Shown here: positions 3,639 to 52,997 of the stretch, in pieces | Numbering within the stretch: the stretch's first letter is position 1 | Layout: each line of letters starts with the position of its first letter | Assembly (NCBI RefSeq): GCF_963676935.1 | Contig: NZ_OY781470.1 | Location: 186,001-250,000, forward strand | Length of the DNA: 64,000 nucleotides | Origin: Halarcobacter sp. | GTDB taxonomy: Bacteria > Campylobacterota > Campylobacteria > Campylobacterales > Arcobacteraceae | Direction: 5' to 3' | The notes under the pieces: model-generated | Database searches by the model: none | What the model saw: the letters and a program-made list of their open reading frames with translations, nothing else | Told to the model about the DNA's origin: nothing | Position numbers and translations under genes: made by a program

Positions 3639-4178
3639 TTAATTTTTAGGTTTTTCAGATTTTGGAACTACGTACATATTTACAAATCTACCCTCTTGTT
3701 TAGGTTCAGATTCTCTTACTCCATACTCTTCAATCATAGGCCATACTCTTTCAAGAACTTCTGCTCCTGCTTCTGGGTGAGCCATCTCTCTACCTTTTAA
3801 GAATACTCTACATTTTACATGGTATCCTTTTTCTAAAAACTCAATTGCATGTTTAACTTTGTAGTTAATATCATTTTCAGCAATTTTTACAGAGAATTTA
3901 ACCTCTTTAACAACAATAACTTTTTGCTTTTTCTTAGCTTCTTTTTTCTTTTTTTCTTGTTGGTATTTGAATTTACCATAATCCATAATTTTTGCTACAG
4001 GAGGCTTTGCATCCGGAGCAATAAGAACTAAGTCTAAGCCTAAATCATCAGCAGTTGTTTGGGCATCTCTTGTTGAAATTATTCCATAGTTTGTTCCATC
4101 ATCACCCGTACATCTTACTTCACTAACTGTGATATCCTCGTTCATTATTACTTCTGATTTTTTTGAATTCCTACTCAA
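3639..4178 (-). CDS. infC: Translation initiation factor IF-3
   Basis: 179 residues. The N-terminal domain includes [16 protein letters not shown] and the linker is Lys-rich; the C-terminal domain carries the [10 protein letters not shown] block. IF-3 binds the 30S subunit, discriminates against non-standard start codons and splits 70S ribosomes. The start is TTG at 4178, overlapping the thrS stop as TTGA, with a strong GGGAG 6 nt upstream; a later ATG (codon 12) has no comparable site. An unusual start codon is a known feature of infC in other bacteria (AUU in E. coli), where it allows IF-3 to repress itself; the TTG here may do the same. Confidence 0.97.
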
Positions 4179-5983
4179 ATTTTACTCCCTGTATTTAATT
4201 GATTTAACATTGTTATGAACTCATCTTTACTCATATTAGATTGTTCTCTATTTCTCCTATCTCTAAGTGCAATTGCTTTATTTTGAACTTCTTCATCTCC
4301 AATTACAACTATCATAGGTACTCTTTTCTTTTCTGCCATTCTGATTCTTTTGTTTAAACTTTCATTCATATCAAAAATATCAGAATCTATATCCATTTCA
4401 ATAAGTTCTTTTTGTAACTCTTTTGCATACTCAACATGTGGCTCAGCAATTGGTACAAAAATAACTTGTGTTGGAGCAATTGCAAATGGAAACTCTCCTG
4501 CACAATGCTCTGTCAAAATACCAATAAATCTTTCAAATGAACCAAGAATTGCTCTATGAATCATTACTGGTTGTTCTTTTTCACCTTTGTCGTTAATATA
4601 TTCAGCTTCAAATCTGCTAGGTAGGTTCATATCTACTTGAACTGTACCACATTGCCATTTTCTACCAATAGCATCTAGAATTTTAATATCAATTTTTGGT
4701 CCGTAGAAAGCTCCCCCACCTTCATCAATACCATAATCAATCTGCTTTTCATCTAGTGCATCCATTATCCCTTTTGTAGTTTTTTCCCAGAATATATCAT
4801 CACCGATAGCTTTTTCAGGTTTTGTTGAAACTTCAATTTCATATTTGAAATCAAATAGTTTTAATAATGAATCAACAAACTCTAATACTTCAAAGATTAC
4901 CTCTTTGATTTGGTCTTGTGTACAGAAAATATGTGCATCATCTTGAGTAAACTCTCTTACTCTAAATAATCCATGCATAGCTCCACTCATCTCATGTCTA
5001 TGAACTACACCATATTCAAAAAGTTTTTTAGGTAAATCTTTATAAGATACAAGACTATTTTTAAATATTTGAATATGACCAACACAGTTCATAGGTTTGA
5101 TACCATACTCTTGTTCGTCAATCACCGTAAAATACATATTTTCTTTATAATTTTGATAGTGACCTGAAATTTTCCACATATCTGATTTAAGCATTTCTGG
5201 ACCACGAACTGGCTCATAACCTCTTACTCTATGAGCTTTATAAAGAATTTTTTCTAATTTTCCTCTAAGTCTTGCTCCATTTGGAAGCCATAAAGGTAAA
5301 CCTGCTCCAATATCATCATTGAATGCAAATAATTCTAATTCTGTTCCTAATTTTCTATGGTCTCTTTTTTTAGCTTCTTCTAACATTCTTACATAGTCAT
5401 TTAACTCTTTTTTGTCAAAAAATGCAATACCATAGATTCTTGTAATCATCTCATTTTTTTCATCACCACCAAGATAAGCTCCAGCTACTCTTGTTAGTTT
5501 AAATGCTCTAATCATTCTAGTATTTGGTAAGTGAGGACCTCTACATAAGTCTTCAAACTCACCTTGCTTATAAAGGGTTAATGTATCATCGGTAATATTT
5601 TGTAAAACAGCTTGTTTTAATTCATCATTAGCAAATTTCGTTAGTATCTCTTCTCTGGTTGTTTCATATCTTTCAATAGGTAATTTCCTATTTGCAATCT
5701 CTTTCATCTTTTTTTCGATTTTTGGTAAATCTTCATCAGAGATTTTTGAATCAACCTTAAAGTCATAGTAGAATCCCTCTTTTACAACAGGTCCTACGAA
5801 AAATTTTGCTTCAGGGTACAACTCTTTGATAGCTTGTGCCATCATATGAGCACATGAGTGTCTAAGAATTTCTAGAGACTCAGCAGAATTGTCAGCTTTA
5901 ATTTCATCTCCAGTGAGGTTTAAAGCTGCAGCAGTTTGAAGGTCATAAATATTTCCTTCACTTAATATACCAATAGGTTCCAA
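4175..5983 (-). CDS. thrS: Threonine--tRNA ligase
   Basis: Class II synthetase that charges tRNA-Thr. Visible parts are the editing-domain motif [10 protein letters not shown], catalytic motif 2 ([20 protein letters not shown]), the zinc-binding Cys in IKPMNCVGH, motif 3 near [13 protein letters not shown] and a C-terminal anticodon-binding domain. I place the start at TTG 5983, giving 602 residues: AAGGAA (5988-5993) sits just upstream. A longer form from ATG 6019 lacks a ribosome site, and that ATG overlaps a likely -10 element (GATAAAAT on the minus strand). First gene of the thrS-infC-rpmI-rplT operon, overlapping infC by 4 nt. Confidence 0.96.
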
Positions 5984-42639: not shown

Positions 42640-44418
42640 CTATTGCCTATAAAGTTCAATTGTAAATAAAGCACCATTTTCACTATTTTTTACACTAAGG
42701 CTTCCCCCTAAATGTTTTTCAATAATGGTTTTACTCATATACAATCCAAGTCCAGTCCCTTGAGATTGATGTTTTGTTGTAAAATATGGGTCAAAGATTT
42801 TTGCAATATTTACCTCTTCTATCCCTTTAGCATTATCTTCAATTGTAATTAATATTTTATTTGATTTAATTATTAAAGAGATTTTAATCCAACTATCTTC
42901 TATTTTTTTGTGAATAATTGCATCTTTAGCATTATTTAATATATTTATTAAAACTTGTGCTAATTCTTCCGGAATCATTTTATATTTTATTGGAGTTTGA
43001 TAATCAATATTTTTGATTAACTTTATATGATTATTTTCCAAAGAAGCTTGAATGATTTTTAAACTCTCTTCTATTCTATCTTGAATAATAACCTCTTTTT
43101 CTACCCTTTTCTCTTTTATAAAATCCCTAAATGTATCTATGGTTTTTGAAAGGTATTTTGTATTGTCAACGATTAAATCCATATTTTTAGGTATATCATT
43201 CTCTTGAAGCATCCCAAACTCATGATTTAGTTTTATTCCACTTGCTATGGTACTAATAGCACTTAAAGGTTGTCTCCATTGGTGGGCAATATTTCCTATC
43301 ATCTCTCCCATTTGTGCCATTTTTGCTTGCTCTAAAAGTTGTTGATCTTTTTTTATCATCTGTTTAGTTAATTCTTTATCTAAAACTGCTTTAATTTTTT
43401 GTTGTAAGAAAAGTAGCATTACACTTAAATATAAAAATATAAATAAAAACAAGATTGTATAGTAATTAGTATTTAAAAGATTTATAGTTTCCCCTTTACT
43501 AATAATTGAAACAAAACCTTCATACATATTTGAGATATTATGATAAATAGGTATAACAGTTACAATAGAATCTTTTTCATTAACAAATATTGATGAAGCT
43601 TCTTTTTTTTGTCCCAATTCATAAAGTTTTTTTGAGATTTCATATGAAGGTTTTATATCTATAATCTTCTTTTTTGATTCCAGTTTTAAGTCTTCTAATA
43701 TAGTTTTATTATGAATAAAACCAGCAAAGTGTGCATCTTTATAAGATTTGTTATTTTTTAGAAAATCTTTATCAAACATATCTTTTTTTATGATAAAGTT
43801 ACTTAGTACATCATATTGTTTCATTAGTGATTTTGTAATAGCTTCCTCACTAAAAGTTAAAGAAATTAGACCTAAATAGATATTATTTTTAATTATTGGA
43901 TAGACAAATCTATATCCTGAACCAAATTTTCCTATCTCATAACTTGAAGTAGGAACTTTATGCTGTTGAACATATTTTAGTGTTTCTCTTTTATTACTAG
44001 TTTTTCTATCAAAATCAAGTGGATTAACCATTTTTAAGAAAATAGTATTATCTGGTAAGATATAGTTTATACTAATTATATTTCTTTTTTTTAGTGTGTT
44101 AAATCTATTAATTGTTTGTAAATATAATTTTTGTCTTATTTTTGCTTGTTCTTTTTTTGTTTTTAGGTGTATATTAAAAAGCTTTTCATCAGCTTTAGTA
44201 AATCTTAAAAGTCCTGTATATATAACTTCTGATAAATCTTTATATTGAAATAAAATACTATTATAAGCTTTTTCATAAACATGTGTAGTTTGAGATAAAT
44301 ACTTCTTTTTATTGTCAATTGCAAAAAAATTTAATATTAAATAAGTAGAAATAGAAATAATAACAAATAAAAAAATATATTTAATTTTTAAATTTCTAAT
44401 TACTGTTTTAGTATTTAT
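42640..44418 (-). CDS. Membrane sensor histidine kinase, probable ATA start
   Basis: Read from ATA 44418: 592 residues. TM (about 13-33), periplasmic Cache sensor including ILPDNTIFLKMVNP (about 35-320), TM (about 325-347), kinase helix with H379 (NIAHQWRQPLSAIS) and ATPase domain (GTGLGLYMSK). The first ATG/GTG/TTG in frame is ATG 44031, which would lose TM1 and the first 129 residues. The upstream part has no stop, reads as natural Cache sequence, and has TAAGGA 6 nt before ATA. So either translation begins at AUA or the ATG was lost. An annotation tool is likely to call only 42640-44031. Confidence 0.82.
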   Translation of the reverse strand: MNTKTVIRNLKIKYIFLFVIISISTYLILNFFAIDNKKKYLSQTTHVYEKAYNSILFQYKDLSEVIYTGLLRFTKADEKLFNIHLKTKKEQAKIRQKLYLQTINRFNTLKKRNIISINYILPDNTIFLKMVNPLDFDRKTSNKRETLKYVQQHKVPTSSYEIGKFGSGYRFVYPIIKNNIYLGLISLTFSEEAITKSLMKQYDVLSNFIIKKDMFDKDFLKNNKSYKDAHFAGFIHNKTILEDLKLESKKKIIDIKPSYEISKKLYELGQKKEASSIFVNEKDSIVTVIPIYHNISNMYEGFVSIISKGETINLLNTNYYTILFLFIFLYLSVMLLFLQQKIKAVLDKELTKQMIKKDQQLLEQAKMAQMGEMIGNIAHQWRQPLSAISTIASGIKLNHEFGMLQENDIPKNMDLIVDNTKYLSKTIDTFRDFIKEKRVEKEVIIQDRIEESLKIIQASLENNHIKLIKNIDYQTPIKYKMIPEELAQVLINILNNAKDAIIHKKIEDSWIKISLIIKSNKILITIEDNAKGIEEVNIAKIFDPYFTTKHQSQGTGLGLYMSKTIIEKHLGGSLSVKNSENGALFTIELYRQ

Positions 44419-44430
44419 ACTAAATCCTTA
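44419..44430 (-). promoter_or_regulatory. Shine-Dalgarno site preceding an ATA codon
   Basis: On the minus strand TAAGGA is followed by TTTAGT and then ATA AAT ACT AAA, the start of the kinase frame. Spacing of 6 nt is ideal for initiation. The TAA of this site is also the in-frame stop closing the frame upstream. No ATG, GTG or TTG lies nearby. Confidence 0.75.
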
Positions 44431-44453
44431 TAATAATATTTATTCAAATTATA

Positions 44454-44945
44454 TCATAACTGAGCTAATACTTTTTCAAAGTCTCCTACAAGAATTTTCT
44501 TTATAGAACATGATAACATAAGGTTTAAAGGATAATCAAAATCTTCTATTGCTCTATCTTCTAAATCATAATAAATACCATTTTCATACTTTATTTCATT
44601 GATATTAAATTGTTGAATATATGTATTACTGGTACTTATATATCCATAAACTTCCTTTTTTAAGCCATATGCATAACCACATTCCCAAACTGTACCACTA
44701 TCAGATTCTTTCCCTCTAAAAGAGTTTAAATTTGCAATTACTATATCACACTCTTCAATTAGTTTTTTATTCGCAAAAAAAATATCTTGGGCAATTTTTT
44801 GTTTTTTTTGATTAAAATCTATTTGATTATCTAAAGGATATAAACCAATAAAACCATATTTTTTACAAAGTTCAACATATTTTTTGCCAATTTCTATTGA
44901 GTTTTTTTCGAACACATCAGGTCCTGCAATATATATTTTTTTCAT
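44454..44945 (-). CDS. Nucleoside 2-deoxyribosyltransferase family protein
   Basis: 163 residues. It opens MKKIYIAGPDVF; the catalytic Glu88 lies in SDSGTVWECGYAYGLKK, and IANLNSFRGKESDSG precedes it. The family swaps or hydrolyses the base of deoxynucleosides or deoxynucleotides. Overlaps the MazG-like gene by 4 nt, so the pair probably works together in clearing or recycling odd nucleotides. Confidence 0.92.
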   Translation of the reverse strand: MKKIYIAGPDVFEKNSIEIGKKYVELCKKYGFIGLYPLDNQIDFNQKKQKIAQDIFFANKKLIEECDIVIANLNSFRGKESDSGTVWECGYAYGLKKEVYGYISTSNTYIQQFNINEIKYENGIYYDLEDRAIEDFDYPLNLMLSCSIKKILVGDFEKVLAQL

Positions 44946-51587: not shown

Positions 51588-51698
51588 TCAAAACCTTCTT
51601 AGAAAATTAGACAATATGATACTAAAAAAATTATAAAACCTTACTTTTATATAAACTTTTATATAATACTAACTCTTACAATAAGCAAAAGGTATAAA

Positions 51699-52997
51699 AT
51701 GAAAAGAATTAATAAGTTTTTTTTAATAACGTCGTTTCTGCTTCTTTTATCACAAAGTTTAATAGCAAATGAAGAGGCTCCAGAAACAAGTCAAAGTAGA
51801 TTTGAATCTTTGTCAAAACTAACTCAGGTAATTGGTACTGTTGAAAAATATTATGTTGATGATGTAAAGCTTGAAGAGATTGTTGATAAAGCTTTAAAGG
51901 GTTTAATGCAAGAGTTAGATGCCCACTCAACTTATCTTGATAAAAAGTCTTCAAAAGAGATGAGTATTCAAACATCTGGTGAATTCGGTGGTTTAGGTAT
52001 TACAGTTGGGATGAGAAATGGTGCTTTAACAGTTATTTCACCTATTGATGATACACCCGCATATAAAGCAGGTGTTGAAGCAGGTGATATAATTTTAAAG
52101 ATCGATGATAAGTCAACTTTAAATATGACACTTGATGAAGCAGTATCTTTAATGCGAGGTAAACCAAAAACTAAAATTGTTTTAACTGTAGTTAGAGAAG
52201 GTGAAAATAAACCTGTAAAAATTGACATTATTAGAGATATAATTAAAATAAAATCAGTATTTTCTAAAACTATTGAGAATGAAGACTTACTTTATGTAAG
52301 AGTTTCAAGTTTTGATAAAAATGTTACTAGGGTTATGAAAAATGAGATTAAAAATAGACCAAATATTAAAGGTATCATTTTAGATTTAAGAAATAATCCA
52401 GGTGGTCTTTTAACACAAGCAATAGGCGTTGTTGACTTATTTGTAAATAGTGGTGTTATTGTTTCTCAAAAAGGAAGAAATATTGCTGATGAGGAAAAGT
52501 TTAATGCAAACCCAACAAATACAGTTACAAATGTACCTTTAGTTGTCCTTGTAAATGGTGGTTCAGCTTCAGCTTCAGAGATTGTAAGTGGTGCATTACA
52601 AGACCATAAAAGAGCGATAATTGTTGGTGAAAAAACATTTGGTAAGGGATCAGTTCAAGCAATTTTACCAATTACACAAGATAGATCAGAAAATATTAAA
52701 TTAACAGTTGCAAAATATTATCTACCAAGTGGAAGAACAATTCAAGCTACAGGAATCACTCCAGATGTTTTTGCATATGCAGGAGAAGCTGTAAAAGAAA
52801 AAAATTCAGAATTTAAAATAAAAGAGGCAGATTTAAAGAAACATTTAGAAGTTGAATTAGAAAAAGAAAATGGTACAAAAAAAGAGAAAAAAGAAGTTAA
52901 AAATACAAAAGTTCTAACACAAGAAGATATTTTAAAAGATAATCAACTTACAGTTGGACAAGGTATTTTAAAATCATTAATTATAGTAAATAAATAA
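51699..52997 (+). CDS. ctpA: C-terminal processing peptidase (S41)
   Basis: 432 residues: signal (about 1-23), a helical arm, a PDZ domain (about 92-170, ISPIDDTPAYKAGVEAGDIILKID) and the S41 catalytic core: LRNNPGGLL, the Ser-containing NGGSASASEI (287-295) and the Lys316 of EKTFGKGSVQ, forming a Ser-Lys dyad. A Lys/Glu-rich tail follows. Cleaves C-termini of periplasmic proteins. Monocistronic, divergent from the YfgM-like gene. Confidence 0.95.
   Translation: MKRINKFFLITSFLLLLSQSLIANEEAPETSQSRFESLSKLTQVIGTVEKYYVDDVKLEEIVDKALKGLMQELDAHSTYLDKKSSKEMSIQTSGEFGGLGITVGMRNGALTVISPIDDTPAYKAGVEAGDIILKIDDKSTLNMTLDEAVSLMRGKPKTKIVLTVVREGENKPVKIDIIRDIIKIKSVFSKTIENEDLLYVRVSSFDKNVTRVMKNEIKNRPNIKGIILDLRNNPGGLLTQAIGVVDLFVNSGVIVSQKGRNIADEEKFNANPTNTVTNVPLVVLVNGGSASASEIVSGALQDHKRAIIVGEKTFGKGSVQAILPITQDRSENIKLTVAKYYLPSGRTIQATGITPDVFAYAGEAVKEKNSEFKIKEADLKKHLEVELEKENGTKKEKKEVKNTKVLTQEDILKDNQLTVGQGILKSLIIVNK

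Follow-up and report, generated by a model that had tools for sequence, protein, structure and literature searches.

The minus strand of the window (the whole 64,000-nucleotide stretch of Halarcobacter sp. DNA analysed here) carries a frame of 593 codons, from 44418 to 42640 including the stop codon TAG (42642-42640), whose predicted product is a transmembrane sensor histidine kinase (Table 1). This assignment is based on a HATPase_c domain (69 bits in Pfam) and a HisKA domain with a conserved H-box. The HisKA match scores 24.9 bits, slightly below the cut-off of 26.9, and is found in the kinase and its 12 orthologues alike (13/13); the H-box HQWRQPLS is invariant among them. The sensor region gives a weak match to dCache_3 (16.4 bits, cut-off 25.7) at residues 104-188, beginning on the amino-terminal side of Met130, and dCache_3 is matched in six of the 13 proteins with a best E-value of 5.8e-6. 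A structure model of the kinase predicted from three sequences is of low confidence (pLDDT 47).

The first 129 codons of the frame contain no ATG, GTG, TTG or CTG, and ATG appears first as codon 130, at 44031. A recount bore out the first-pass annotation on this point, as well as its placing of a Shine-Dalgarno sequence 6 nt before the ATA at 44418 (AAGGA, 44429-44425). Its view that such a stretch would hardly stay open by chance holds too, the probability of 129 open codons being ~4e-5 at the stop-triplet frequency of the window (0.076). The added part had been read as a transmembrane helix and the start of a Cache sensor, and it does code for TM1 and a stalk, and probably for the first part of a dCache_3-like domain, the Pfam match being weak. 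An in-frame TAA sits three codons before the ATA, so that almost no alternative start is available. The Shine-Dalgarno AAGGA has five bases, is ordinary for the window and is not extended. Of ~47 genes surveyed in the window, the kinase gene alone lacks a usable standard start. Normal starts (ATG, TTG or GTG) were seen in the other Cache-type kinases checked there, which corrects the earlier annotation and makes the AUA-type start specific to this orthologous group; other Cache kinase groups examined as further cases of AUH starts (AUA, AUC or AUU) also had ordinary ones. A gene from a different Cache kinase group in genome G003 (L090:1010-2815, plus strand) has an ATA found only there, its closest relatives having ATG or GTG, possibly through recent loss of ATG.

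Table 1. Features of the kinase locus and of the two other AUH candidates in the same genome (G000). Positions are those of the window unless a contig or locus is named.
Feature	Position	Strand	Support or remarks
Likely -10 element TATAAT	44448..44453	-	TANAAT hexamer nearby in 12/13 orthologues; putative function
Nucleoside 2-deoxyribosyltransferase-like gene	44454..44945	-	ends 35 nt before ATA
Full kinase coding sequence, 592 aa + TAG, read from AUA	42640..44418	-	12 orthologues aligned end to end
Domain order: TM1, dCache_3-like sensor, TM2, HisKA, HATPase_c	42640..44418	-	
In-frame TAA stop; only GGA, TTT and AGT between it and ATA	44428..44430	-	
Shine-Dalgarno AAGGA, 6 nt spacing to ATA	44425..44429	-	AAGG-type core at 5-7 nt in 13/13 orthologues
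ATA initiation codon (predicted)	44416..44418	-	ATA/ATC/ATT in 13/13 orthologues
129 codons preceding first ATG: TM1, stalk helix, beginning of sensor domain	44032..44418	-	dN/dS; dCache_3 match
First in-frame ATG, residue 130, internal Met	44029..44031	-	not conserved as start
TatD-family nuclease	G000:C1:1702520-1703305 (L143:2520-3305)	-	AUH start; relatives L152-L171, L221-L240, L261-L280
PnuC-like transporter	L137:2696-3304 (G000)	-	relatives L182-L190

Orthologues were searched in 60 relatives and then in 104 genomes of the family and 399 of the order. Twelve were found, with 47-89% identity, eleven from the same genus and one from a second genus (G017). Together with the window kinase they form a single clade (100/100 support) that spans the two genera. 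The first-pass annotation had left a choice between AUA initiation and a recent loss of the start, and had proposed to align the orthologues at this position. None of the 13 has ATG, GTG or TTG there; the codon is ATA in six, ATC in three and ATT in four. Its A and T are invariant in the alignment and the third base varies among A, C and T, with an AAGG-type Shine-Dalgarno core 5-7 nt ahead in every case. An in-frame stop three codons ahead of the AUH codon in L001, L002, L003 and L005 leaves no room for a start further upstream in these genes. Parsimony on the kinase tree gives at least six changes of the wobble base, none of them to G, a pattern suggestive of selection against AUG, which by itself is not significant in an AT-rich genome.

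ATG 44031 is not conserved, its position being occupied by Leu in L004 and by a different stretch in L013, so the orthologues do not share a start at this point. The sequence preceding it aligns among the orthologues. In the pair L001/L002, codons 2-129 have a dN/dS of 0.11 and those after codon 130 have 0.088; the corresponding values for L007/L008 are 0.043 and 0.050. Values before ATG 44031 that are as low as in the remainder indicate that the 129-codon stretch is protein-coding and under purifying selection. A base-call error is irrelevant, since 12 independent genomes share the lack of a standard start, and this lack together with the purifying selection upstream excludes both a sequencing error and a recent loss of the start, leaving AUH initiation. 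AUA initiation is thus the part of the earlier choice that stood.

A TANAAT hexamer lies ~30-50 nt ahead of the AUH codon in 12/13 kinases. The TATAAT of the window (44453-44448) was absent from the output of a generic promoter scan. Were it a -10 element, the window transcript would have a leader of ~20-25 nt that holds no other plausible start. MazG-like and truD genes are kept beside the kinase in 11 of the 12 orthologues, mostly along with the helicase and deoxyribosyltransferase genes. The deoxyribosyltransferase-like gene is not the upstream neighbour in L006, where a MazG-like gene is found, nor in L013, where an initiator tRNA gene is found. None of the window neighbours is kept in G017, whose nearest upstream gene is the initiator tRNA. 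This tRNA-fMet gene (L089:4874-4950, minus strand) directly precedes the kinase, which starts with AUC there, only in that genome, probably by coincidence.

An Rfam search returned no riboswitch or known RNA element at the kinase start. RNA hairpins are possible near the AUH codon in L001, L002 and L006 and are not common to the others, so a conserved hairpin was rejected. In-frame ATG codons are depleted in codons 2-46 (none seen, where the remainder of the gene would predict ~14); this was not used as evidence because the orthologues are related and ordinary paralogues also have few (0.4 per gene). Elsewhere in the window, Rfam matches Rp_sR47 (Rickettsia sRNA47) at 52386-52690 on the minus strand, antisense to a long ORF (51603-52994, plus strand). 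It is likely that this match reflects the coding gene and not an sRNA.

Further AUH starts were screened in 400 kb of the same genome, taken as 20 evenly spaced stretches with ~340 genes, by seeking open frames in which a Shine-Dalgarno-AUH pair precedes the first standard start. Two candidates emerged, coding for a TatD-family nuclease and a PnuC-like transporter. The TatD first codon is ATA, ATT or ATC in 55 of the 59 Arcobacteraceae genomes inspected, representing 17 of 20 genera; the four genomes with a standard start belong to three genera (g8, g12, g20). In other families of the order, TatD mostly has ATG, GTG or TTG before the IIDTHCHLD-type motif. The TatD ATA overlaps the stop codon of the upstream gene as ATAA in 17 of the first 19 examined, and coupling to that gene may help initiation; L159 lacks the overlap and its start is still ATT. 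The PnuC-like transporter has ATA or ATC after a Shine-Dalgarno sequence in eight of nine orthologues and TTG in one, and a conserved ATG at codon 15 is a possible alternative start. No report of AUH starts in Arcobacter or TatD was found in a literature search.

The sample of G072, from another Arcobacteraceae genus, gave no strong AUH case; its TatD gene, outside the sampled stretches, starts with ATT. Sampling of G050, which belongs to a different family, yielded four AUH sites, plus one CTG site, with a good Shine-Dalgarno. The G050 sites L314:14762, L303:12695, L316:2507 and L304:7371 have a strong Shine-Dalgarno and no standard start nearby, the codons and genes concerned being ATT (ABC-2 permease, KpsM-like), ATA (MFS transporter), CTG (FlhA-like) and ATC (phosphatase-like). 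Relatives of the two G050 genes checked, KpsM-like and MFS, mostly use TTG or ATG. The statistical screen alone shows no AUH enrichment in G000 (2/7 sites, P 0.13) or G072 (0/8), and real cases are identified by conservation only. Within the order, AUH starts seem to appear sporadically, the kinase and TatD genes standing out by their long conservation.

Sequence comparison establishes the position of the kinase start, the conserved AUH class of its codon and the distance to the Shine-Dalgarno, and shows that the amino terminus is coding. It is very likely that the gene codes for a full-length, membrane-bound sensor histidine kinase with translation starting at AUA 44418. A base change that has just removed an ATG in this strain could leave a truncated cytosolic kinase starting at ATG 44031, which does exist in frame; this is scarcely credible given that a standard start is missing in 12 other species as well, that dN/dS is as low before 44031 as after it, and that L004 and L013 have no ATG at this position. 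Translation might also begin elsewhere, at an out-of-frame start, in an upstream ORF or through stop readthrough, and reach the kinase frame by frameshifting or coupling. Coupling is conceivable in L011, where the preceding gene ends within a few bases of the AUH codon. Against it, no nearby ATG, GTG or TTG in any frame is common to the orthologues, the upstream gene varies, a likely promoter separates it from the kinase, and every orthologue carries a Shine-Dalgarno of its own at a near-fixed distance from the AUH codon, so that such an indirect route is highly improbable. The AUH starts of TatD give independent support that AUH initiation works in the family.

The AUH start could be used and yet be merely tolerated as a by-product of AT-rich mutation, with no part in regulation, a reading that falls somewhat short of an even chance. 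The sporadic candidates of G050, including an MFS gene whose relatives mostly use TTG or ATG, indicate that conversion to AUH can happen by drift. However, start-codon switches to AUG are frequent and AUG is normally favoured (PMC5622118), whereas the kinase kept AUH in 13/13 orthologues through at least six wobble changes, and TatD across 17 genera, neither settling on AUG. A broader proposal holds that AUH is a stable, selected class of gene control in Arcobacteraceae, in which weak start codons set or tune expression via IF3, possibly aided by a more tolerant initiation machinery. The class would include the kinase and TatD, probably also PnuC, and in each genome perhaps a score of further genes; this appears rather unlikely.

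If translation starts at AUA 44418 as preferred here, AAGGA would position the 30S subunit at this codon, where initiator fMet-tRNA would pair with the first two bases and mispair at the third. In vitro, IF3 accepts nothing but Watson-Crick pairing at the first two positions and rejects weak pairs at the third (PMC10158994). Initiation at AUA would then be slow because IF3 disfavours the third-base mispair. The kinase would begin with fMet, its weak start codon would keep it scarce, and IF3 levels could perhaps tune its expression. The weak start may thus be regulatory, act as a fixed brake on kinase dose or simply be tolerated.

The infC gene, which encodes IF3, autoregulates through an AUU or AUA start. 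Conservation of an AUH start in orthologues and its weakness are shared with the kinase gene; in contrast, the infC product is the autoregulating factor itself. In the window, infC (3642-4181, minus strand) has an apparent TTG start after GGGAG, conserved in the genus, instead of the classical AUU, and the classical autoregulation is therefore not evident. Relaxed IF3 discrimination was considered and rejected: Y75, R133 and R168 are conserved and no clear relaxing change was found. Changes R131K, Q92V and three positions of the amino-terminal half tend to separate Arcobacteraceae IF3 from that of other families, a tendency too weak to be used. At position 131 (E. coli numbering), most Arcobacteraceae have Lys, and the other families of the order mostly have Arg (L191-L220 versus L241-L260).

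AUA is almost never used as a start codon and proven AUH starts are, to our knowledge, limited to a handful of bacterial genes. In Staphylococcus aureus, reporter output from ccpN (AUA) and cvfC1 (AUU) is ~10% of that from AUG in poor medium, and the AUA start of ccpN reaches up to 30% in rich medium (PMC13009471). Like the kinase, these are regulators or likely regulators with a conserved AUH and a properly spaced Shine-Dalgarno; theirs is extended and their starts have reporter proof, whereas the kinase AAGGA is ordinary, and the Arcobacteraceae gene codes for a sensor kinase whose wobble base varies among species. The AUU start of the chromosomal E. coli gene pcnB sets low expression, as cited in PMC13009471; it is of the same class as the kinase start, in a different gene and without common ancestry. 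The Yersinia pestis phosphorelay protein RcsD-Hpt is translated from AUU, as tested by mutation (PMC10191623). It resembles the kinase in being a phosphorelay protein made from an AUH codon but uses an internal start of a frameshifted gene in one species, in contrast to the main start of the kinase in 13 species. Having a conserved amino terminus with no standard start, a spaced Shine-Dalgarno and a conserved AUH codon, the kinase gene is a predicted addition to the known AUH-initiated genes, unusual in how deeply it is conserved and in encoding a sensor kinase.

Gene callers restricted to ATG, GTG and TTG would trim the kinase by 129 residues, losing TM1 and the beginning of the sensor. The kinase and TatD genes offer a natural set for asking whether weak starts regulate expression through IF3. 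The occurrence of AUH in a sensor kinase of 13 species and in a housekeeping nuclease of most of the family implies that such starts can be evolutionarily stable.
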